A stretch of DNA of 64,000 bases from Spinactinospora alkalitolerans (GTDB taxonomy: Bacteria > Actinomycetota > Actinomycetes > Streptosporangiales > Streptosporangiaceae). Positions 540 to 21,706 of the stretch are shown here, piece after piece. Each line of letters starts with the position of its first letter. The stretch's first letter is position 1. The stretch is taken from assembly GCF_013408795.1 (NCBI RefSeq), contig NZ_JACCCC010000001.1, forward strand, positions 4,836,001 to 4,900,000. The letters are read 5' to 3'. The notes beneath the pieces were generated by a model. The model did no database searches. It was not told where the DNA came from and saw only the letters and a list, made by a program, of their open reading frames with translations. The position numbers and the translations under genes were made by a program.

Positions 540-588
540 TCGGTGCTGCCATGACTCTCATCCTTCCCGGGAATGGAAGCCTCCGTCA

Positions 589-914
589 CTCTCGGTCCGA
601 GGCAGACCGGATCGACAACCGGAGTACCAGGGCTCCTCTCCGGTCTCTCGGCCGTGTCGCCTCCCGTGGTGGGCACTCTCGGTAATCCCGCCGCCGTCGC
701 CGATCGTCCTGATCATGGAACCGGCGTCGCGGCCCGTTCGCGGACCCTCCGCCGCGCAACGCCCCGCACCCGCCAGGGCAACAAGCATCCGCTTGGTACG
801 GGTATGGCAGAGTGGGCCCCGAACCGACCGGAGACCCGACATCATGGGCATCGCGGCGTCATCCCCGGCGTCAATGGCCATCGCGCACGCGAGAAGAAGG
901 GACCCCTCCTCCTG
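589..914. other. Gap between IS end and redox operon
   Basis: No convincing gene is visible. The stretch should hold the promoter of the oxidoreductase operon, but I see no clear -35/-10 pair. The open frame reading into the first gene lacks a good start or family-like sequence before 915. Confidence 0.4.
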
Positions 915-2903
915 ATGCAGCTCCTGTCTCCGCTGCGGTTCGCCTGCGGGGCCACGGCGCCCAACCGGTTGGTGTTCGGGCCGCACGAGACCAATCTCGG
1001 GCGCCGGCGCGGCCTGTCCGAACGGCACACCGCCTACTACCGGCGCCGCGCCGCCGGCGGGGCCGGCGTCATCGTCACCGAGACCGCCTCGGTACACGCC
1101 GAGGACCACCCCTATGAGCGCGCCCCGCTGGCCGCCGACTGCGCCGGGGGCTGGGCCGAGGTCGCCGACACCTGCCACGCCGAGGGGGCGCTCGTCCTCG
1201 CCGGGCTGGGCCACACCGGCCAGCAGGGCAGCAGCGCCTACAGCCAGGCGCCGCTGTGGGCGCCCTCCCGGGTGCCCGATGCGGTGAGCCGCGAGGTGCC
1301 CATGGAGATGGACGCCGACGAGATCGCCGAGATCGTGACGGCGTTCGCGACGGCGGCGCGGATCGCGGTGCGCGCGGGCGTGGACGGCGTGGAGGTCAAC
1401 GCCGGGCAGTCGAGCCTGCTCCGGCAGTTCCTCTCGGGGCTGACCAACCGGCGCGGCGACGGCTACGGCGGCGAGGGGCGGTCCCGCTTCGCACGCGAGG
1501 TGCTCGGCGCCGTCCGCGCGGCGGTGGGCGAGGGCGCGGTGCTCGGGCTGCGGCTGTCCTGCGATGAACTCGCTCCTTGGGCGGGCATCACCCCGGAGGC
1601 GGCGGTTCCCCTGGCGGCCGAGCTCGCCGATGCGGGGGCGCTGGACTACGTGGCCGTGGTGCGCGGATCGATCCACTCCGCGGGCGCCACCCGCCCCGAC
1701 GGCCACACGCCGCCGGGTTTCAACAACGGCCTCACCCGGCTCGTGCGCGGCGGGCTGGCGGAACCGGTGGCGGTGTGCGCGCAGGGCTCGATCGTCGACC
1801 CGGCCATGGCCGAGGAGCTGGTGGCCGAGGGGACGGCCCAGCTTGTGGAGATGACCAGGGCCCAGATCGCCGACGCCGAGCTCGGCGCCAAGCTCGCGGC
1901 GGGCGTCGCCGAGCGGGTGCGGCCGTGCGTGCTGTGCAACCAGACCTGCCAGGTCCGCGATCCGCGCAACCCGATCGTCTCCTGCATCGGCGACCCCCGC
2001 AGCGGGCACGAGACCGAGGACGACCCCGACCCCGGCGCGCTCGCCGGCGCCGGTGGCCCCGCAGCCGGGCACCCGGTGGAGGTGCTGGTGATCGGCGGCG
2101 GACCGGCCGGGTTGGAGACCGCGCGGGTCGCCGCGGCGGCCGGGCACCGGGTCCGGGTCGTAGAGCGGCGGGAGCGGACCGGCGGCATGCTGCGGGTGGC
2201 GGCGGCAGGGGCGGGCCGGGAGCGGTTGGCGCTGCTCGCCGACTGGCTGGAGGCCGAGTGCGAGCGGCTCGGCGTCACCGTCGAGACGGGGTACCGGGCG
2301 AGCGCCTCCGACATCGACGCGCGGCTGGCCACCGGCGGCTCGGTCGTGGTGTGCACGGGCAGCGTTGCGGGCGGGCGCGAGTTCCGTGTCGGCACCGGCG
2401 TCAGCGTGCACGACGCGGCGGAGGTGCTGGAGCTGAGCGGGCAGGAGGGGCGCATCCGGCTGCCCGACGGCCCGGTGGCGGTGCACGACCCGGTGGGCGG
2501 GCCCGTCGCGGTGAGCGTCGCCGAGTCGCTGGCCGCCGCGGGCCGCGAGGTCACGCTCATCACGCCCGACCACGTCGCGGGGACGCAGCTCGCGCGCACC
2601 GGCGATCTCGCCCCGGCCGCCACACGGCTGGCCGGGGCGGGCGTGGCCGTGCTGAAGCGCTCCCGGCTGCGTGCGGCGGCCGCGGGCGCGGTCGAAGTGG
2701 AGCACGCGTTCACCGGCGAGCGCCGCGAGGTCGCGGCCGGGGTGCTCATCGACTGCGGTTTCCGGCTCCCCTGCGAGGGCCTGTGGCGCGGCGCGCGCCT
2801 GGGGCTGAGCCGCGCCGGTGACACGGTGGCTCCGCGCACCGTTCACGAGGCCGTCCTGGAAGGTCGCCGCGCCGCCCTCGCCATCGAGGAGGTCTATCAA
2901 TGA
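915..2903 (+). CDS. FadH/OYE-family Fe-S flavoprotein oxidoreductase (first of two)
   Basis: This predicted 662-aa enzyme has the three-part layout of 2,4-dienoyl-CoA reductase and trimethylamine dehydrogenase. A FMN-binding TIM barrel covers about residues 1-330 (LSGLTNRRGDGYGG is the OYE loop). A [4Fe-4S] cluster motif C-x2-C-x3-C-x11-C sits at about 338-357 (CVLCNQTC). A Rossmann FAD/NAD(P) domain starts near 388 (VIGGGPAGLETA). Such enzymes move electrons from NAD(P)H through FAD, Fe-S and FMN to an organic acceptor. The ATG at 915 gives the family start (LLSPLRF); AAGAAGGGA lies upstream at a rather long spacing. It heads an operon with a second paralogue and FixABCX-like genes. The pair resembles the 'mycofactocin system FadH/OYE family oxidoreductase 1/2' families; no mycofactocin biosynthesis gene is in the window. 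The substrate is unknown. Confidence 0.85.
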   Translation: MQLLSPLRFACGATAPNRLVFGPHETNLGRRRGLSERHTAYYRRRAAGGAGVIVTETASVHAEDHPYERAPLAADCAGGWAEVADTCHAEGALVLAGLGHTGQQGSSAYSQAPLWAPSRVPDAVSREVPMEMDADEIAEIVTAFATAARIAVRAGVDGVEVNAGQSSLLRQFLSGLTNRRGDGYGGEGRSRFAREVLGAVRAAVGEGAVLGLRLSCDELAPWAGITPEAAVPLAAELADAGALDYVAVVRGSIHSAGATRPDGHTPPGFNNGLTRLVRGGLAEPVAVCAQGSIVDPAMAEELVAEGTAQLVEMTRAQIADAELGAKLAAGVAERVRPCVLCNQTCQVRDPRNPIVSCIGDPRSGHETEDDPDPGALAGAGGPAAGHPVEVLVIGGGPAGLETARVAAAAGHRVRVVERRERTGGMLRVAAAGAGRERLALLADWLEAECERLGVTVETGYRASASDIDARLATGGSVVVCTGSVAGGREFRVGTGVSVHDAAEVLELSGQEGRIRLPDGPVAVHDPVGGPVAVSVAESLAAAGREVTLITPDHVAGTQLARTGDLAPAATRLAGAGVAVLKRSRLRAAAAGAVEVEHAFTGERREVAAGVLIDCGFRLPCEGLWRGARLGLSRAGDTVAPRTVHEAVLEGRRAALAIEEVYQ

Positions 2904-2969
2904 CCGTCCCGATCAGCCGCCCTTCTCCGCTTCGCCCCGCCCCGGCGGCACCCCGGCTCGTGCCGGGCC

Positions 2970-3078
2970 GTCCACAGGCCGGGAATTCTTCTGGAGGCCG
3001 AGGCGTGCGGGCTGGAAGGATTGTGAGTGGGGACCTCGTCTCTCCCCCACCCCTGGGGGCGCCCCCGGGGATAGGGGC
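2970..3078 (+). repeat. Copy A of a ~110-bp interspersed repeat (intergenic)
   Basis: Lies between the two oxidoreductase genes. It starts GTCCACAG, passes through GTGAGTGGGGACCT and ends in the C/G-rich palindromic run CCCCTGGGGGCGCCCCCGGG. It aligns end to end, with small gaps, to two further copies at 5131-5237 and 5686-5795. It is the most diverged of the three. Confidence 0.65.
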
Positions 3079-3105
3079 GCTGCCGGTCGTGCGCGGAGGC
3101 CGCCG

Positions 3106-5103
3106 ATGAGCGCCGGCGGGCGGTATTCGCACCTGTTCACGCCGCTGCGGGTGGGGCCGATCACGGTGACCAACCGCGTGGTGTTCAGCGCGCACCTCAC
3201 CAACTACGCCGAGGACGGCCTGCCCGGCATCCGGCACGCCGCCTACTACGCGGCGCGGGCGCGCGGCGGCGCCGGGCTGATCATCACCGAGGAGCATTCC
3301 ACCCACCCCACCGACCAGCCCTACGAGAAGCTCATCCACGGCTTCCGGCCGGAGGTGCTGCCCGGCTACCGCGCCATCACCGAGGCGGTGCACCGCGAGG
3401 GCGTGCCGATCCTGGCGCAGATCAACCACAACGGCGGGCAGGCGTCCTCGATGTACTCCCGGCTGCCGGTGTGGGCCCCCTCCCCGGTGGCCGATCCGCT
3501 GTTCCGCGAGGTGCCCAAGGCCGTGGAGCGGCACGAGATCTCCGAGATCATCGACGGCTACGGGCTGGTCGCGGGGCACTGCGCCGACGGCGGTTTCGAC
3601 GGCGTGGAACTGCAGTGCTCGCACTCCTCCATCGTCCGGGGGTTCCTCTCCCCCGCCACCAACCGCCGCGGCGACCGCTACGGCGGGTCACCGGCCAACC
3701 GGGCGCGGCTGCTGCTGGAGCTGATCAGCGAGGTGCGGCGCAGCATCGGCCCCTCCCGCGTGCTGGGGGTGCGGCTGTGCGGCGACGAGCTCGTCGACGA
3801 GGGCACCACCCTGGACGAGGCCGTCGAGGTGGCGCGCATGGTGGAGGCCACGGGCAAGGTCGACTACATCAACACCTCGATCGGGGTCGCCACGTCGACG
3901 CTGTACATGGTCGAGGCGTCCATGCACGTCCCGCCGGGGTACGCGCTGTTCATCGCCAACGCGATGCGCCGGGCGGTCGACCTGCCGGTGGTGGGGGTCG
4001 GCCGGTTCACGGATCCGATGCAGGCCGACCGGGCGCTCGGCGACGGCCACTGCGACCTCGTGGGGGTGGTGCGCGGCCAGGTCGCGGACCCCGACTTCGC
4101 CGCGAAGGCGCGCGCCGGTTCGCCCGAGGCCATCCGCACCTGCCTGTCGTGCAATCAGGAGTGCGTCGGCCGGGTGGGGCTGAACCGCTGGCTGGGGTGC
4201 GTCGAGAACCCGCGGACCGGGCGCGGGGCCGCATCGCCGGAGGCCGGCCGGCCCGTGGCGCTGCCGACGCCGGGTCGGCGCGGCCGCGACGTGCTGGTGG
4301 CCGGCGCCGGCCCTGCGGGGTTGCAGGCGGCGATCGCGGCGGCGCGGGCCGGGCACAGGGTGCGGGTGCTGGAGGCGGAGGACGCGGCCGGGGGCCAGGT
4401 GCGGCTGGCCGCGGCCGCGCCCGGCCGCGCGGAGTTGGGCGGCCTGGTGCGCAACCAGCTCGCCGAGTGCCGCAGGTACGGGGTGCGGATCGACTACGGA
4501 GCACCGGTCGGCGCGTCGCTGGTGCGTCGGGAGGCGCCCGAGGTGCTGGTGGTGGCCACGGGTGCGCGGCCCGACCGGCCGTGGTGGGCGGGCGAGCACG
4601 CGCGGGTGGTCGACGTGCGTGACGTGGTGGCGGGCGTGGCGCGGCCGTCGGGGTCGGTGCTGGTCGTGGACGAACTCGGTTTCCACCAGGCCACGAGCGT
4701 CGCGGAACTGCTGGCCGACCGCGGCTGCGCGGTCGAGGTCGTCACGCCGGACATGGTGGTGGGCCGGGACCTCGGTCTGACGCTGGACCTGGAGAACTGG
4801 TGCGTGCGCGCCGCCGCGAAGGTGATCGTGGAGACCTGCGACCACGGCGTGATGGGGGTGGCGGCCTCCGGGGCGGAGCCGGGACGGCTCGAGGTGGCGC
4901 TGCTGCACCACCCGACCGGGACCCCGGTGCCGCGCACCGTGGACTGGGTGGTGTGCGCGGTGCCGCAGGCGCCGGTGGACGGCCTGTACCGGGAGTTCAA
5001 GGGGGAGCCGGGGATCGCGGTGCGCAGGGCGGGCGACTGCGTCGCGCCGAGGCGGGCGCACGCCGCGGTGATCGAGGGCGACCGGATCGGAGCGGCGCTG
5101 TGA
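3106..5103 (+). CDS. FadH/OYE-family Fe-S flavoprotein oxidoreductase (second of two)
   Basis: A 665-aa paralogue of the preceding protein with the same order of domains. The FMN TIM barrel fills the first 340 residues (FLSPATNRRGDRYGG), the cluster motif C-x2-C-x3-C-x11-C is at about 345-364 (CLSCNQEC), and the FAD/NAD(P) Rossmann motif VAGAGPAGLQAA lies near 394. The ATG at 3106 follows GGAGG at 7-base spacing. It is separated from the first gene by about 200 bp containing repeat copy A. Its stop overlaps the GTG of the ETF-alpha gene (GTGA), so the two are probably translationally coupled. The two paralogues are only moderately similar, so they may act on different substrates or form a heteromer; this is inference. 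Confidence 0.85.
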   Translation: MSAGGRYSHLFTPLRVGPITVTNRVVFSAHLTNYAEDGLPGIRHAAYYAARARGGAGLIITEEHSTHPTDQPYEKLIHGFRPEVLPGYRAITEAVHREGVPILAQINHNGGQASSMYSRLPVWAPSPVADPLFREVPKAVERHEISEIIDGYGLVAGHCADGGFDGVELQCSHSSIVRGFLSPATNRRGDRYGGSPANRARLLLELISEVRRSIGPSRVLGVRLCGDELVDEGTTLDEAVEVARMVEATGKVDYINTSIGVATSTLYMVEASMHVPPGYALFIANAMRRAVDLPVVGVGRFTDPMQADRALGDGHCDLVGVVRGQVADPDFAAKARAGSPEAIRTCLSCNQECVGRVGLNRWLGCVENPRTGRGAASPEAGRPVALPTPGRRGRDVLVAGAGPAGLQAAIAAARAGHRVRVLEAEDAAGGQVRLAAAAPGRAELGGLVRNQLAECRRYGVRIDYGAPVGASLVRREAPEVLVVATGARPDRPWWAGEHARVVDVRDVVAGVARPSGSVLVVDELGFHQATSVAELLADRGCAVEVVTPDMVVGRDLGLTLDLENWCVRAAAKVIVETCDHGVMGVAASGAEPGRLEVALLHHPTGTPVPRTVDWVVCAVPQAPVDGLYREFKGEPGIAVRRAGDCVAPRRAHAAVIEGDRIGAAL

Positions 5104-6329
5104 GTGAGGCGGAGGACGCCGGGGCGGGTTGTCCACAGCCGGATGATCCGAGTGGCGGGGGTCCGGCCGGATCTCCGATTCTTGGGAGTGGGGGGGTTGA
5201 CTCTCCCCCTACCCCCGAGGCGTCCTCGGGGATGGCCGCGGTTGTGCCGGTGCGCGAGGGTCGGCTTCCGGCGGGCGGTCTGGAGGTCGCCGCCGAGGCC
5301 GGTGACGCCGTGATTCTGGTCGGCGACGGCGCGGCCGCGGCGGCGGCCGGGCTGACCGCGGGCGCGCCGCGGGTGCTGGCGTGGGAGACCCCGGGCTTCC
5401 GGGCGGGTGCGTGGGCGCGGGTGCTCGCCGAGGTGTGCGCCGGTTTCGACGCGGTGCTGCTGCCGGCCTGTCCCGACGGCCGTGATCTCGCGCCCCGGCT
5501 GGCGGCGCGGCTGGGCCGTCCGTTGTTGGCCGGGGCCGTGGAGGTGGGGCCGGGGTTCGCGGTGCTGCCCCGCGACGGCGATCGCCGCAGCATCCGGGTC
5601 GGGTTGACGGGACCGGCCGTGGTGACGGTGCGGCCGGGCGCCGGCGGCGGGGCCGCGCGTGGAGGGGCCGGTGGCCGCGGGGTTCGTCCACAGCCCGGAA
5701 ACCTGGTTGGCGCCGCGGGTTCCCGGTCGCCGATTCTTGGGAGTGGGGGGGTTGGTTCTCCCCCTACCCCCGGGGCGCCCTCGGGGACGGGGGCGGTTGG
5801 GCGGGTTGGGCTGATCACCGCCGAGACCGACGATGCGGGGGCGCACGACGCCGAGACGATCGCTGTGATGGCGCCCGATCCCGCCACGATGGATCTTTCG
5901 GAGGCCGGGCGGATCGTCGCCGGGGGCGCCGGGCTGATGGGCGGCGAGGACGGCGGGGCCGCGGCCTTCGCCCTGCTGTCCGAGGTCGCCACCGCGTTGG
6001 CGGCGTCCACGGGTGCCACGCGCGTGGTGACCGATGCCGGTCTTGTCCCGTTCGAGCGGCAGATCGGCACCGCCGGGACTATGGTGAGCCCTGTTCTGTA
6101 CATGGCGATCGGGGTTTCCGGGGCGGTCCAGCACCTGTCGGGCACGGGCGATCCGGCGCACGTGGTGGCGGTGAACCTGGATCCGAGCTGCCCGATGATG
6201 GCCGCGGCCGACCTCGGCCTGGTCACCGACGCGCCGGGGCTGCTGGCCGCGCTCGCGCGGCGGCTGGGGGTCGATCCGGCCGCGGTGGATGCGCGCTTCG
6301 AGGGAGGGGACGCGGGTGACTCGCTTTGA
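5100..6329 (+). CDS. etfA: Electron transfer flavoprotein alpha subunit (FixB-like) with two repeat-derived inserts
   Basis: Predicted 409 aa against roughly 320 for the family. The FAD-binding C-terminal domain is clear at about residues 308-375 (DAGLVPFERQIGTAG, then GISGA-type GVSGAVQHLSG, then NLDPSCPMMAAADLGLV). The N-terminal domain runs from about 47 to 185. The extra length comes from two stretches encoded by copies of an interspersed repeat. Residues about 11-46 contain PILGSGGVDSPPTPEASSG, and residues about 196-232 contain PILGSGGVGSPPTPGAPSG, placed exactly in the linker between the two domains. The GTG at 5100 overlaps the previous stop. An alternative ATG at 5232 would remove the first insert but not the second. 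The partner is the ETF beta gene at 8041. Confidence 0.85.
   Translation: MSEAEDAGAGCPQPDDPSGGGPAGSPILGSGGVDSPPTPEASSGMAAVVPVREGRLPAGGLEVAAEAGDAVILVGDGAAAAAAGLTAGAPRVLAWETPGFRAGAWARVLAEVCAGFDAVLLPACPDGRDLAPRLAARLGRPLLAGAVEVGPGFAVLPRDGDRRSIRVGLTGPAVVTVRPGAGGGAARGGAGGRGVRPQPGNLVGAAGSRSPILGSGGVGSPPTPGAPSGTGAVGRVGLITAETDDAGAHDAETIAVMAPDPATMDLSEAGRIVAGGAGLMGGEDGGAAAFALLSEVATALAASTGATRVVTDAGLVPFERQIGTAGTMVSPVLYMAIGVSGAVQHLSGTGDPAHVVAVNLDPSCPMMAAADLGLVTDAPGLLAALARRLGVDPAAVDARFEGGDAGDSL
5131..5237 (+). repeat. Copy B of the interspersed repeat, inside etfA (N-terminus)
   Basis: Begins GTCCACAGCC and contains GATTCTTGGGAGTGGGGGGG and CTCCCCCTACCCCCG, ending in a CGAGG...CCTCGG palindrome. It is read in frame as part of ETF alpha if translation starts at 5100. 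Copies B and C are close to identical over their second half. Confidence 0.75.
5686..5795 (+). repeat. Copy C of the interspersed repeat, inside etfA (domain linker)
   Basis: Same order as copy B: GTCCACAGCC, a variable middle, then GATTCTTGGGAGTGGGGGGG and a CCCCCGGGGCGCCC palindrome. It is open in the etfA frame and falls between the N-terminal domain (ending VVTVRPG) and the FAD domain (beginning VGLITAETDD). Confidence 0.78.
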
Positions 6330-7614
6330 CGTGGTCGTGGTGGGCGCCGGGCCGGCGGGGTCGGCCGCGGCGATCACCGCGGCGCGTTCCGGGGCGTCGG
6401 TGCTGCTCGTCGAGCGCGGGCCGTTCCCGGGCGCGAAGAACATGTACGGCGGTGTCATCCACGGCCGGGTGCTGGACGATCTGGTCCCCGACTGGTGGGA
6501 GCGGGCGCCGGTGCAGCGGTGGGTGGCGCGCCGCTCCACGATGGTCATGACCGGTTCCCAGTCGCTCAGCGTCGAGTACCGCACGGATGCCTGGTCGCAG
6601 CCGCCCTACAACGGGGCGACGGCCTACCGATCGGAGTTCGATTCCTGGTTCGCCGGTGAGGCGGAGCGGGCCGGGGCGCGGCTGGTGTGCTCGACGACGG
6701 TCACCGGGCTGCTGCGCGCCCCTGACGGCACGGTGCGGGGTGTGCTGACCGACCGCGACGGCGGTGAGGTCGAGGCGGGCGTGGTGGTGGCCTGCGACGG
6801 GGTGAACTCGTTCCTGGCGAGGGAGGCCGGGTTGTACCCGGGTTTCAGCGCCGAGAACTTCTCGCTCGGCGCCAAGGAGGTGCTGGCGCTGCCCCGGGAG
6901 GAGATCGACAAGCGGTTCGGGCTGACCGGGCTGGAAGGGCTCGACATCGAGATGCTGGGGTGCACGCGGGGCATCCCCGGCGGCGGGTTCCTGCACACCA
7001 ATGTCGACACGGTCGCGGTGGGCGTGGTGGTGTCGACGACCGCTCTGGCCGAGGCGAAGATCCGGCCGGAGGAGTTGATCGCGGGTGTCAAGGCGCATCC
7101 GTCGATCGCGCCGTACCTGCGCGGCGCCGAGCTCAAGGAGTACTCCGCGCATCTGATCCCCGAGGGGGGTTATGCGGCGATGCCGGAGTTGGCGGGCCCG
7201 GGGCTGCTGGTGTGCGGGGATGCGGCGGGGATGTGCCTGGCCGCGGGGCTGTGGCTGGAGGGGGTGAACTTCGCGATCGGGTCGGGCATGGCGGCGGGCG
7301 AGGTCGCGGCGCGCGCGGTGCGCAGAGGGGACGTGTCGGAGGCGGGGCTGGCCGGCTACCGCAGGCGGTTGGAGTCCGATTTCGTGCTTTCCGACCACGA
7401 GAGGTTCAGGGACGTGCCGGGCCTGGTGCTGTCGGAGCGGGTGCAGCGGCGTTATCCGCAGTTGGTTTGCGATGCGGCGGAGCGGTTGTTCACGGTGACG
7501 AATCCGCGTCCGAAGAAGGGGGTCGCCGCGGTGCTCAGGGAGACCGCGGCCGCGCACGGGGTGAAGTTGCGCGACCTGGCTCGGGACGGGTGGCAGATCT
7601 TGAGGAGGTTTTGA
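6316..7614 (+). CDS. fixC: FixC-like FAD-dependent ETF:quinone-type oxidoreductase
   Basis: A 432-aa flavoprotein starting with an FAD-binding Rossmann motif (VVVVGAGPAGSAAAITAARSG) and the family's GAKNMYGG segment near residue 40. A second FAD contact, GLLVCGDAAGMC, lies near 300. FixC/ETF-QO proteins accept electrons from reduced ETF and pass them, with the small ferredoxin partner, to quinone. The GTG at 6316 is preferred because GGGAGGGGA ends six bases before it; it overlaps the end of etfA by 14 bases. Its stop overlaps the ATG of fixX. The C-terminal ferredoxin domain of full-length ETF-QO is absent and is supplied by the next gene, as in FixC/FixX. Confidence 0.88.
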   Translation: MTRFDVVVVGAGPAGSAAAITAARSGASVLLVERGPFPGAKNMYGGVIHGRVLDDLVPDWWERAPVQRWVARRSTMVMTGSQSLSVEYRTDAWSQPPYNGATAYRSEFDSWFAGEAERAGARLVCSTTVTGLLRAPDGTVRGVLTDRDGGEVEAGVVVACDGVNSFLAREAGLYPGFSAENFSLGAKEVLALPREEIDKRFGLTGLEGLDIEMLGCTRGIPGGGFLHTNVDTVAVGVVVSTTALAEAKIRPEELIAGVKAHPSIAPYLRGAELKEYSAHLIPEGGYAAMPELAGPGLLVCGDAAGMCLAAGLWLEGVNFAIGSGMAAGEVAARAVRRGDVSEAGLAGYRRRLESDFVLSDHERFRDVPGLVLSERVQRRYPQLVCDAAERLFTVTNPRPKKGVAAVLRETAAAHGVKLRDLARDGWQILRRF

Positions 7615-8006
7615 TGGCGACGATGCTGGAGCGTCTGCGGCGGCGCCGGCGCGCGCGGTCCGATGGTCGGCGGCCCGGTGCGCCGGCCGCGGAGTCGCGT
7701 GCGGCCGCGGAGCCGCCGGAGTGGCCGGAGTACGCCTTTGCCGAGCGCATGGCGGCGGTGGAGTTCCGGGTCGCGGACGAGCCGCACATCGTGGTGGACA
7801 CCGATGTCTGCCGGAGTTGCACGACCAAGGCGTGCGTGACCGCCTGTCCCGCGGATCTGTTCGTGCCGACCTCCGACGGCGGCATCCTGTTCAACTACGA
7901 GCACTGCTTCGAGTGCGGCGTCTGCTATCTCGTCTGTGACGGCGAGGGGGCCATCACCTGGTCCTATCCGCGGGGCGGTCACGGCGTGGTGATGCGGTGG
8001 TCGTGA
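7614..8006 (+). CDS. fixX: FixX-like ferredoxin with two Cys clusters
   Basis: 130 aa. After a basic, low-complexity N-terminal stretch of about 40 residues, two four-cysteine sets follow. The first is CRSCTTKACVTACP (C-x2-C-x4-C-x3-CP) and the second CFECGVCYLVC (C-x2-C-x2-C-x3-C), ending in the family's WSYPRGG motif. This suggests two [4Fe-4S] clusters, as reported for FixX of electron-bifurcating FixABCX. The ATG overlaps the fixC stop (TGATG) and is preceded by GAGGAGG at five bases. Confidence 0.88.
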   Translation: MATMLERLRRRRRARSDGRRPGAPAAESRAAAEPPEWPEYAFAERMAAVEFRVADEPHIVVDTDVCRSCTTKACVTACPADLFVPTSDGGILFNYEHCFECGVCYLVCDGEGAITWSYPRGGHGVVMRWS

Positions 8007-8040
8007 TCGTGTGGGCGCCGCGCCCGCTGGGAGGTTCCTC

Positions 8041-8937
8041 ATGACCGTGGCCGTTGCGATCAAGCTGGTCGATCTGCGTCCCGAGATCGATCCGCTCTCG
8101 GGCACGGTGCGCGGCGGGCACCGGTGGGACCGGCACACGCTGGGGGTCTCCGCCGCTGATTGGGCCGCCGTGGAGACGGCGCTGCGCATCGGGTCGGCGT
8201 GGGGCCAGGAGGTGGTGGTGGTCAGTGTGGGGCCGCCGGAGGCCGAGGGGGTTCTGCGGGAGGCGTTGACGCTGGGGGCCGTGCGCGCGGTCCGGGTGGA
8301 GCTGCCCACGGCGGGTCCGCACGGTTCGGCGTCGAGTTCGACGGTCGCCGCGGCGCTGGCTTCGGTGGTGGGGTCTGAGGGGCCTGCGCCGGCCGGGCTG
8401 GTGGTGTGCGGCGCGGCGAGTCCGGATCGGGGCAGCGGTTCGGTTCCGGCGTTCCTGGCCGAGGAGTTGGGGGCGGCGCAGGCGCTGGGGCTGGTGTCGT
8501 TGGAGACCGCGGAGTCGCGGGGCCGCGGGGAGTTGCGCGGGGTGCGCCGGCTGGACGGGGGTGGGCGGGAGCGGTTGCGGGTCGCGGTGCCCGCGGTGGT
8601 CTCGGTGGAGGCGGGGGTCGCCGTGGTGCGGCGGGCTTCGCTGGAGGGTCTGCTGGGGGCGCGTTCGTCGGTGGTGGAGACCGCGTTGGCGCCGGCTCCG
8701 CGCGATGGTTTCTCCGGGTTCCCGCACCGGCCGGGCCCGTTCCGTCCGCGGCCTCGTGCGCTGCCGCGTCCGGATCCGTCGGAGGACGCGCGGCGGCGCG
8801 CGCTGGCGCTGGCCGGTGCGCCGGGCGGGCGGACCGCGCCGCGGGTCGTGACCGCCGATCCGGAGCGGGCCGCCGATGAGCTGCTGGATTATCTGCGGGA
8901 GATCGGTCTTCTGCCGCGCGGGGCCGGGGCGGGGTGA
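8041..8937 (+). CDS. etfB: Electron transfer flavoprotein beta subunit (FixA-like)
   Basis: 298 aa. The N-terminus VAVAIKLVDLRPEIDP and the middle (EVVVVSVGPPEA, GAVRAVRVE, VAAALASVV) follow the ETF beta fold. The C-terminus after about 210 is longer and more proline/arginine-rich than usual before the final helix (ELLDYLREIGLL). It pairs with etfA to bind FAD, and in FixA also a second, bifurcating FAD; I cannot confirm the second site by eye. The ATG at 8041 has GGGAGG seven bases upstream. It is the last gene of the operon. Confidence 0.83.
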   Translation: MTVAVAIKLVDLRPEIDPLSGTVRGGHRWDRHTLGVSAADWAAVETALRIGSAWGQEVVVVSVGPPEAEGVLREALTLGAVRAVRVELPTAGPHGSASSSTVAAALASVVGSEGPAPAGLVVCGAASPDRGSGSVPAFLAEELGAAQALGLVSLETAESRGRGELRGVRRLDGGGRERLRVAVPAVVSVEAGVAVVRRASLEGLLGARSSVVETALAPAPRDGFSGFPHRPGPFRPRPRALPRPDPSEDARRRALALAGAPGGRTAPRVVTADPERAADELLDYLREIGLLPRGAGAG

Positions 8938-21281: not shown

Positions 21282-21358
21282 GCTGTTTTCCACAGATCCG
21301 CGATCGCGGTGGCGCGGGCGCGGTTCTCAGACGCAGCCTTGGGGTATGGACACCGCGC

Positions 21359-21706
21359 TCAGCCGGCCCGCACCGGCACCGTCTCGCCCGGCGGCACGTG
21401 GTCGGCGGCCACGCCCCACACCACGTCCAGCAGGTCCTCCAGCGCGTGGGCCAGCGACGCGTCGACGAGCGCGTAACTCACCTGCCGTCCGTGCGCGGTC
21501 GCGGTCACCAGGCCGCATTCGCGCAGGCAGGCGAGGTGATTGGAAACATTCTGCCGGGTAAGACCAAGCTGCTCGGCCACCTGTGCGGGATAGGCGGGAC
21601 CGTCCAGCAGGGCCAGGAGCAGCCGGCATCTGGTGGGGTCCGCGAGGGCTCGGCCGAGGCGTTGGATCGCGGAGAGGCGCTGCTCGGAGGTCAACATGAA
21701 AACCAT
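21359..21706 (-). CDS. ArsR/SmtB-family metal-sensing repressor
   Basis: 115 aa from ATG 21706 (ATG 21697 is possible). The winged helix is clear: ALADPTRCRLLLALLDGPAYPAQVAEQLGLTRQNVSNHLACLRECGLV. Possible metal ligands are the two cysteines in helix alpha-R and its end (TRC, LRECG) and histidines near the C-terminus (DHVPPGE). CmtR-like sensors use such cysteines. It is divergent from the CDF exporter, with tandem palindromes between them, so it should repress the exporter until metal binds. Confidence 0.88.
   Translation of the reverse strand: MVFMLTSEQRLSAIQRLGRALADPTRCRLLLALLDGPAYPAQVAEQLGLTRQNVSNHLACLRECGLVTATAHGRQVSYALVDASLAHALEDLLDVVWGVAADHVPPGETVPVRAG

Follow-up and report, generated by a model that had tools for sequence, protein, structure and literature searches.

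The 64,000-nucleotide stretch of DNA analysed here, referred to as the window, comprises bases 4836001-4900000 of the 6.68-Mb single-contig genome of Spinactinospora alkalitolerans (G000, the host genome). It contains etfA, the gene for the alpha subunit of electron transfer flavoprotein (ETF), and three copies of a short GC-rich repeat, one located in the gap between two genes of the operon and two located within etfA itself (Table 1). The copies, which are approximately 113 bp each with bounds taken from full-length alignment, are related to one another beyond chance, as the original prediction had held for these three places; the sequence GTCCACAG, named there as the common end, is exact in all three copies, and the two copies in etfA encode the peptides given there.

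The second etfA copy falls between the Pfam domains ETF and ETF_alpha, and the predicted linker insert was borne out by length, with 79 residues in the host protein versus 35-38 in five orthologues. A search of 41 genomes, including the host genome, gave an EtfA match in 40; seven of the best-matching loci were aligned (linker length was measured in five of them), and none had the inserts, which are thus not conserved among these relatives. The nearest EtfA relatives were scattered over a few genera. The predicted N-terminal insert was upheld in part. Translation from GTG 5100 passes through the first copy, and this start codon overlaps the upstream stop, apparently in the same way as the start in three of the five orthologues (L014, L015, and L016, as read by eye); from this shared arrangement, the first copy would have entered just after the ancestral start, and it may be translated. 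The alternative ATG at the right end of the copy could, judging from the alignment with orthologue N-termini, leave the copy as an untranslated leader. The single-sequence AlphaFold model of EtfA had a mean pLDDT (predicted local distance difference test) of 35.6 and was unusable, so nothing was drawn from it, and a protein scan of the genome contigs found no relative.

A fourth copy of the same type, designated type A, was found at 6.15 Mb of the host genome (G000:C1:6150445-6150568), 1.3 Mb from the window copies. With this copy as the query, the whole host genome yielded four type A copies and no further match at E <=0.5, and the covariance models R1 and R2 placed the same four copies at the top, although the two model searches scored 150 of approximately 9,000 first-look candidates and weak copies could escape them. 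When seven full-length copies representing four genera were aligned in all 21 pairs, the scores lay 5.3-12.2 standard deviations (SD) above those of dinucleotide shuffles. A profile constructed from five intergenic copies alone found both etfA copies (E-values in Table 1, set for 0.1 Mb), and no match to it was obtained in reversed sequence. In 864 kb of the host genome (860 kb distinct, partly chosen around known copies), only known copies were detected at E <1e-3, namely, type A copies at four places and copies of a second type, B, in the mccA gene described below and in one intergenic gap, between genes for FGE-sulfatase/DinB_2 (EgtB-like) and class-II glutamine amidotransferase (EgtC-like) proteins.

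The repeat family has a GC-rich unit of approximately 110-135 bp. Both subfamilies start with GTCCACAG, carry TGGC approximately 15 nt further on, and then diverge: type A continues with GAGTGGGGG...CTCCCCC, whereas type B has GGTTGACTTGAAATAGGGGTTCCCCC instead of the type A hairpin. When the copy at locus L003 was compared with 200 genomes of the same family, seven genomes, the host genome included, matched at E <=0.001; reading of the sequences left the matches in the host genome, G057, G064, and G147 as true, while the hits in G099, G170, and G215 were judged to be chance matches and discarded. Over the 1 kb compared, genomes G057 and G064 were identical to Actinorugispora endophytica and Allosalinactinospora lopnorensis, respectively, both of which are Nocardiopsidaceae. 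Consequently, the element is not unique to the etfA operon, being present at 6.15 Mb as well as in Actinorugispora, Allosalinactinospora, and G147; neither of the two outcomes named in the original prediction as counting against it was observed. The gap between zwf and opcA is occupied by a type A copy both in Actinorugispora and in G147, which belongs to another genus, so the copy was either inherited or the site was a repeated target.

Table 1. Features in the window and type A copies at other loci
Feature	Position	Strand	Evidence and remarks
Type A element, intergenic, between two operon genes	2968-3080	+	Model R2 100.0 bits, E 4e-22 (copy in R2 training set)
etfA, electron transfer flavoprotein alpha, hosting two copies	5100-6329	+	Pfam ETF residues 70-182 (3.1e-13), ETF_alpha residues 265-348 (4e-22)
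Type A element, 5' end of etfA	5129-5241	+	Intergenic-only profile E 1.6e-9; etfA frame stop-free; translated only with the GTG 5100 start
Alternative etfA start ATG, right end of first copy	5232-5234	+	Gives MAAVVPVREG, aligning with orthologue N-termini
Type A element, EtfA inter-domain linker	5684-5796	+	Intergenic-only profile E 9.4e-11; linker longer than in five orthologues (see text)
Head-only site (TCCACAG-N15-TGGC ... CTTGGGG), promoter-like, excluded from copies	21286-21350	+	17.5 bits, E 0.014, match 21286-21397
Type A copy, zwf-opcA gap	Actinorugispora L103 5284-5392		Antisense to neighbours
Type A copy, zwf-opcA gap	G147 L048 1483-1588		Antisense to neighbours
Type A copy beside hmgA-like gene (Pfam HgmA_C)	Allosalinactinospora L102		Antisense to neighbours

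The type B subfamily was revealed by model R2 in nine chosen genomes. Its core, searched with at most three mismatches in 297 genomes, gave 14 matches in G071, a single match in G095, and none in the others, and the backward pattern used as a control gave 0 matches in the same genomes. Three type B copies of G071 were matched by the type A profile at E <1e-3, reversed sequence giving no match; the two types are therefore related. For the 6.15-Mb copy, plasmid and phage collections yielded nothing at E <=1e-3. Two broader searches were set aside. The Actinorugispora zwf-opcA copy (L103) as a query matched 69 of the 297 genomes at E <=0.01, mostly through short stretches of the hairpin or right end, which were not counted. 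A hairpin-only pattern gave five matches in the 297 genomes (three in the host genome, one in G057, and one in G101) versus four for backward controls, so that by itself it is no measure of copy number; the G101 match, which lay in coding-looking sequence and had no head, was dropped. Several G071 type B copies (L308, L312, L315, and L316) are followed directly by what seems by eye to be a second inverted repeat, of approximately 65 bp, with GGGGCATGGGA...TCCCATGCCCC, and the mobile unit may thus be composite.

The weakest R1 match in the host genome (26.7 bits) falls, in antisense orientation, in the gene for the alpha subunit of methylcrotonyl-CoA carboxylase (MCC; mccA; Pfam BT_MCC_alpha), and the insert site corresponds to the surface loop between VEFI and FLEMN. 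Among solved biotin carboxylases, the chain that matched best aligned to query residues 1-189 and 240-406, the residues between being skipped. MCC alpha was searched in 30 chosen genomes, of which 26 matched, and the loop was read in 22 of these 26 (all but L229-L232). Five of the 22 loops were long (60 residues in the host genome, 61 in G021, 58 in G010, 49 in Actinorugispora, and 122 in G095), whereas the other 17 had 8-28 residues; G045, a member of the same genus (g44) as G095, had a 28-residue loop and no copy. Profiles of both types, that of type B built without mccA copies, were then run on ten MCC loci. The type B profile firmly placed the host mccA copy (E = 7.6e-15) and detected two tandem copies in G095 (3.3e-14 and 2.3e-10) and one in G021 (1.9e-9); the mccA copy of Actinorugispora was found with the type A profile made from intergenic copies (2.5e-7). 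Thus, a profile-detected copy of one or the other subfamily resides in the MCC loop of four of the 22 genomes, both subfamilies occupying the same loop. The long G010 loop gave no profile detection, a decayed copy being seen there by eye, and the five profiled loci without a long loop gave no profile match. In the mccA copies of the host genome, G057, G021, and G095, the frame is stop-free throughout, with coding composition outside the copies.

On the MCC tree (22 rows, loop removed), the insert label requires five changes, at least three of which are forced by well-supported branches; with nine of the 19 inner branches open, gains are indistinguishable from losses. It should be noted that the type A copy of Actinorugispora lies inside a well-supported group that is otherwise insert-free, while type B copies occur elsewhere on the tree, and these sequence relationships argue for at least two separate captures in the MCC loop.

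Of the copies examined, more were intergenic than intragenic. None of the 13 G071 copies tested for frame was convincingly intragenic, and Pfam analysis of 29 of the 48 listed open reading frames (ORFs) covering a copy, as well as of L092, revealed, except in the two MCC proteins, no domain that a copy divides; since neither set of data showed other gene residence, capture is occasional and not preferred. In some copy-covering ORFs, the domain begins well downstream of the copy. A DUF559 label for the gene in L089 had no Pfam match and was dropped. The number of open frames per copy, out of six, averaged 4.25 for type A (n = 8) and 3.69 for type B (n = 16), versus 4.04 for random pieces of the window; being near the background, this tolerance follows from GC-rich composition.

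We conclude, with a probability of roughly 0.8, that the family consists of short GC-rich non-coding interspersed repeats of Nocardiopsidaceae and their relatives, similar to miniature inverted-repeat transposable elements (MITEs), which form two subfamilies, have spread as DNA, and have occasionally been captured in frame in tolerant loops. The copies would be non-autonomous and most likely moved in trans, as MITEs are. Because GC-rich sequence contains few stops, a copy of suitable length could occasionally fall in frame inside a gene and would be retained, presumably as a neutral change, where the protein tolerates a flexible loop, as the EtfA inter-domain linker and the VEFI-FLEMN loop of MCC alpha may do. 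Local doubling might have added the tandem copies of G095 and possibly one of the two etfA copies.

Several observations weigh against this interpretation. The mobility of the repeats is itself what we infer. Terminal inverted repeats barely exceeded expectation, the mean longest complementary end word being 4.75 in type A and 5.62 in type B versus 4.35 and 4.94 in shuffles; a word of 8 nt was found in three of the 16 type B copies and words of 4-7 nt in the rest. A target duplication was not clear either, since the longest flank word shared in 11 G071 copies averaged 4.82 versus 4.51 for unpaired flanks, with the right end inexact. To the lack of convincingly intragenic copies in G071 should be added the modest score of the host mccA copy against type A copies (only 2.8-5.1 SD above shuffles) and the weak codon-composition score to the left of the etfA linker copy (-3.8, versus 8.4 to the right), where the frame is nevertheless open. 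One antisense frame lacks stops in each of the 16 type B copies, a feature for which a purely neutral view has no need, and the head motif is found ahead of ordinary genes as well. The copies are old, with 65-83% identity, and they are few in the host genome, where a span of 2.8 kb contains three of the four type A copies, a pattern suggestive of local copying.

This last point also favours the strongest alternative, to which we give somewhat less than an even chance, namely, that the element arrived once in the operon and was then duplicated locally by recombination or gene conversion, so that the two etfA copies would not represent independent insertions. These two copies are indeed the most similar pair (83% by gapped alignment, z = 12.2), and the tandem pair in the G095 MCC loop shows that local doubling occurs. 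However, the intergenic copy of the window is closer to the 6.15-Mb copy (80% identity, z = 10.1) than to either etfA copy (67-68%), and the flanks of the two etfA copies have no clear similarity by eye. A further-reaching reading, which we put forward tentatively and with the odds leaning rather against it, is that the MCC loop is a repeated landing place, entered independently in several genera by two subfamilies of one mobile family with a promoter-like head, once doubled in tandem, and with the copies kept in frame in every case; that Etf alpha of one genome received the repeat on two occasions; and that the head was copied from, or gave rise to, a genuine class of regulatory sites.

The head of the repeat also bears on a further alternative, which we regard as unlikely, according to which the repeat is a conserved, non-mobile cis-regulatory element composed of an activator box (TCCACAG, DnaA-box-like), a -35-like TGGC, and a hairpin acting as an attenuator or terminator. 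In all seven full copies, TCCACA is invariant, TGG follows 15 nt later, and TNGNGAGTGGGG stands at a fixed 26 nt after TGG; the sequence TTGTCCACA is presumably the actinobacterial DnaA box. The pattern TCCACAG-N14-TGGC occurred 15 times in the host genome versus three times for the backward control, and the spacing is specific, a gap of 15 being seen in 14 of the 46 listed matches to TCCACAG with gaps of 11-19 (among 100 of 118 matches). The host-genome heads were biased in strand, with 12 forward and three reverse. A head of the form TCCACAG-N15-TGGC was found upstream of genes whose products match Pfam Pribosyltran (comF-like), UPF0102 (yraN), Peptidase_M23, and helix-turn-helix domains (L088, L090, L091, and L096; positions 21286-21350 in the window), and in some related sites TAGNNT follows 23-24 nt from where TGGC begins. 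Judging from these motifs, the head sites are possibly a promoter class, and the repeats seem either to have such a promoter-like site in common or to descend from one. On the other hand, in 99 other genomes together, the head pattern was found 643 times versus 565 for the control, so its excess is mainly local to the host genome and a few others. The orientation of the repeats to neighbouring genes varies (sense in etfA; antisense in mccA, at zwf-opcA, and at the hmgA-like gene), and the copies inside reading frames are not positioned to drive them, which argues against the repeats themselves acting as promoters of those genes. Moreover, the aligned etfA orthologues and 17 of the 22 mccA loops are without the element. 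As to the hairpin, the predicted C/G palindrome is visible, but single-strand folding of four copies gave z values of -1.64, -0.33, -2.05, and 0.15, no stronger than shuffles in two of the four, and a double change was found in three of the 16 pairs of the consensus hairpin, with covariation near zero. Rfam gave no match at the gathering score, and none of the matches listed overlaps a copy.

A selected peptide module, in which a flexible GSGG-SPPTP linker was kept and duplicated at the protein level, is highly improbable, even though the two etfA copies encode similar peptides, which lie at domain edges. The two copies differ at 7 of 38, 10 of 37, and 10 of 38 first, second, and third codon positions, respectively, and because the differences are spread evenly, with no third-position excess, nothing points to selection on the peptide and protein-level selection was rejected as the origin. 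The same DNA is, in addition, found in intergenic regions, the opposite strand is read in mccA to give a different peptide, and the aligned orthologues lack the module. Chance resemblance of GC-rich sequences, for which the very high GC content of the genome and the shuffle-like hairpin energies of two of the four copies might be cited, is refuted for practical purposes by the SD and profile values given above and by the empty reversed controls.

The best-known cases of enzymes that have taken up selfish repeats in frame come from the small genomes of Rickettsia and Wolbachia, and Wolbachia reportedly has counterparts of Rickettsia palindromic elements (RPEs). The interpretation of the family as MITE-like repeats captured in frame was compared with such published systems. 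RPEs are described as dispersed elements of approximately 105-146 bp, both genic and intergenic, which encode in-frame peptides in conserved enzymes (PMC2229807, PMC10969869). The likeness to RPEs claimed in the original prediction holds at the level of the mode of action: the family is a dispersed repeat of approximately 100-150 bp (four type A copies in the host genome and 14 type B core matches in G071) with in-frame inserts in conserved protein genes (etfA and mccA) whose orthologues lack them. Unlike RPEs, it shows no long stem whose terminal inverted repeats clearly exceed those of shuffles, its folds differ between copies, its copies are mostly intergenic, and it has an actinomycete host with a GC-rich genome and a promoter-like head. 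Thus, the family works like RPEs, whereas membership among them is not supported.

For ERIC/IRU and the Yersinia repeats YPAL/RU-2, the excerpts of PMC2229807 describe MITEs with intergenic and intragenic copies and translated in-frame fusions. The present family resembles bacterial MITEs in size class, non-coding nature, dispersal, the presence of both intergenic and intragenic copies, and in-frame residence, and differs from the ERIC and Yersinia elements in that terminal inverted repeats and target-site duplications were not seen clearly beyond controls. Repetitive extragenic palindromic (REP) sequences of the GTAG/CGTC groups are, according to the part of PMC3733652 consulted, palindromes of 20-40 bp associated with RAYT, some of them inside ORFs, and different REPs occupy approximately the same recB site in two Xanthomonas species. 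Like GTAG/CGTC REPs, the family is interspersed and hairpin-bearing, with some copies in ORFs, and many type B copies begin with CGTC; in contrast to REPs, the unit is 110-135 bp long and the hairpin lies approximately 50 nt from the CGTC head, so the family does not classify as REP. The suggestion that no such element had been described in actinomycetes is uncontradicted by searches of the open-access literature, in which no description was recognised (subscription papers were outside the scope); the texts of PMC2229807, PMC3733652, and PMC10969869 contain no mention of "actino(bacteria)", and Streptomyces, looked for in two of them, is absent. The suggestion must be narrowed to the extent that in-frame MITEs are already on record outside Rickettsia, in the ERIC and Yersinia cases reported in the excerpts of PMC2229807.

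As for the surroundings of the window copies, the gene located 3' of the intergenic copy encodes an Oxidored_FMN/Pyr_redox protein according to Pfam, and the 5' gene is similar by eye; downstream of etfA are genes for a FAD_oxidored-type flavoprotein and a second ETF-domain protein. The order in positions 573-8937 is therefore two similar Oxidored_FMN-type proteins, EtfA, a FAD-dependent flavoprotein, and a second ETF protein, an arrangement suggestive of an operon for electron transfer in some oxidative demethylation.

The captures described here extend the in-frame acquisition of repeats from the small genomes of Rickettsia and Wolbachia to large GC-rich actinomycete genomes. As judged from their sequences, a repeat of this kind occupies one particular MCC loop in several relatives, and one enzyme loop with two subfamilies and two differing species of one genus provides a natural experiment on the passage of a DNA repeat into a protein. 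Puzzling inserts of 40-120 residues in annotated enzymes would thereby be explained, and the type A and type B profiles can be used by others to count such captures. If the tentative reading of the MCC loop as a repeated landing place is true, actinomycetes would have a repeat system of their own that remodels proteins much as the one in Rickettsia does.

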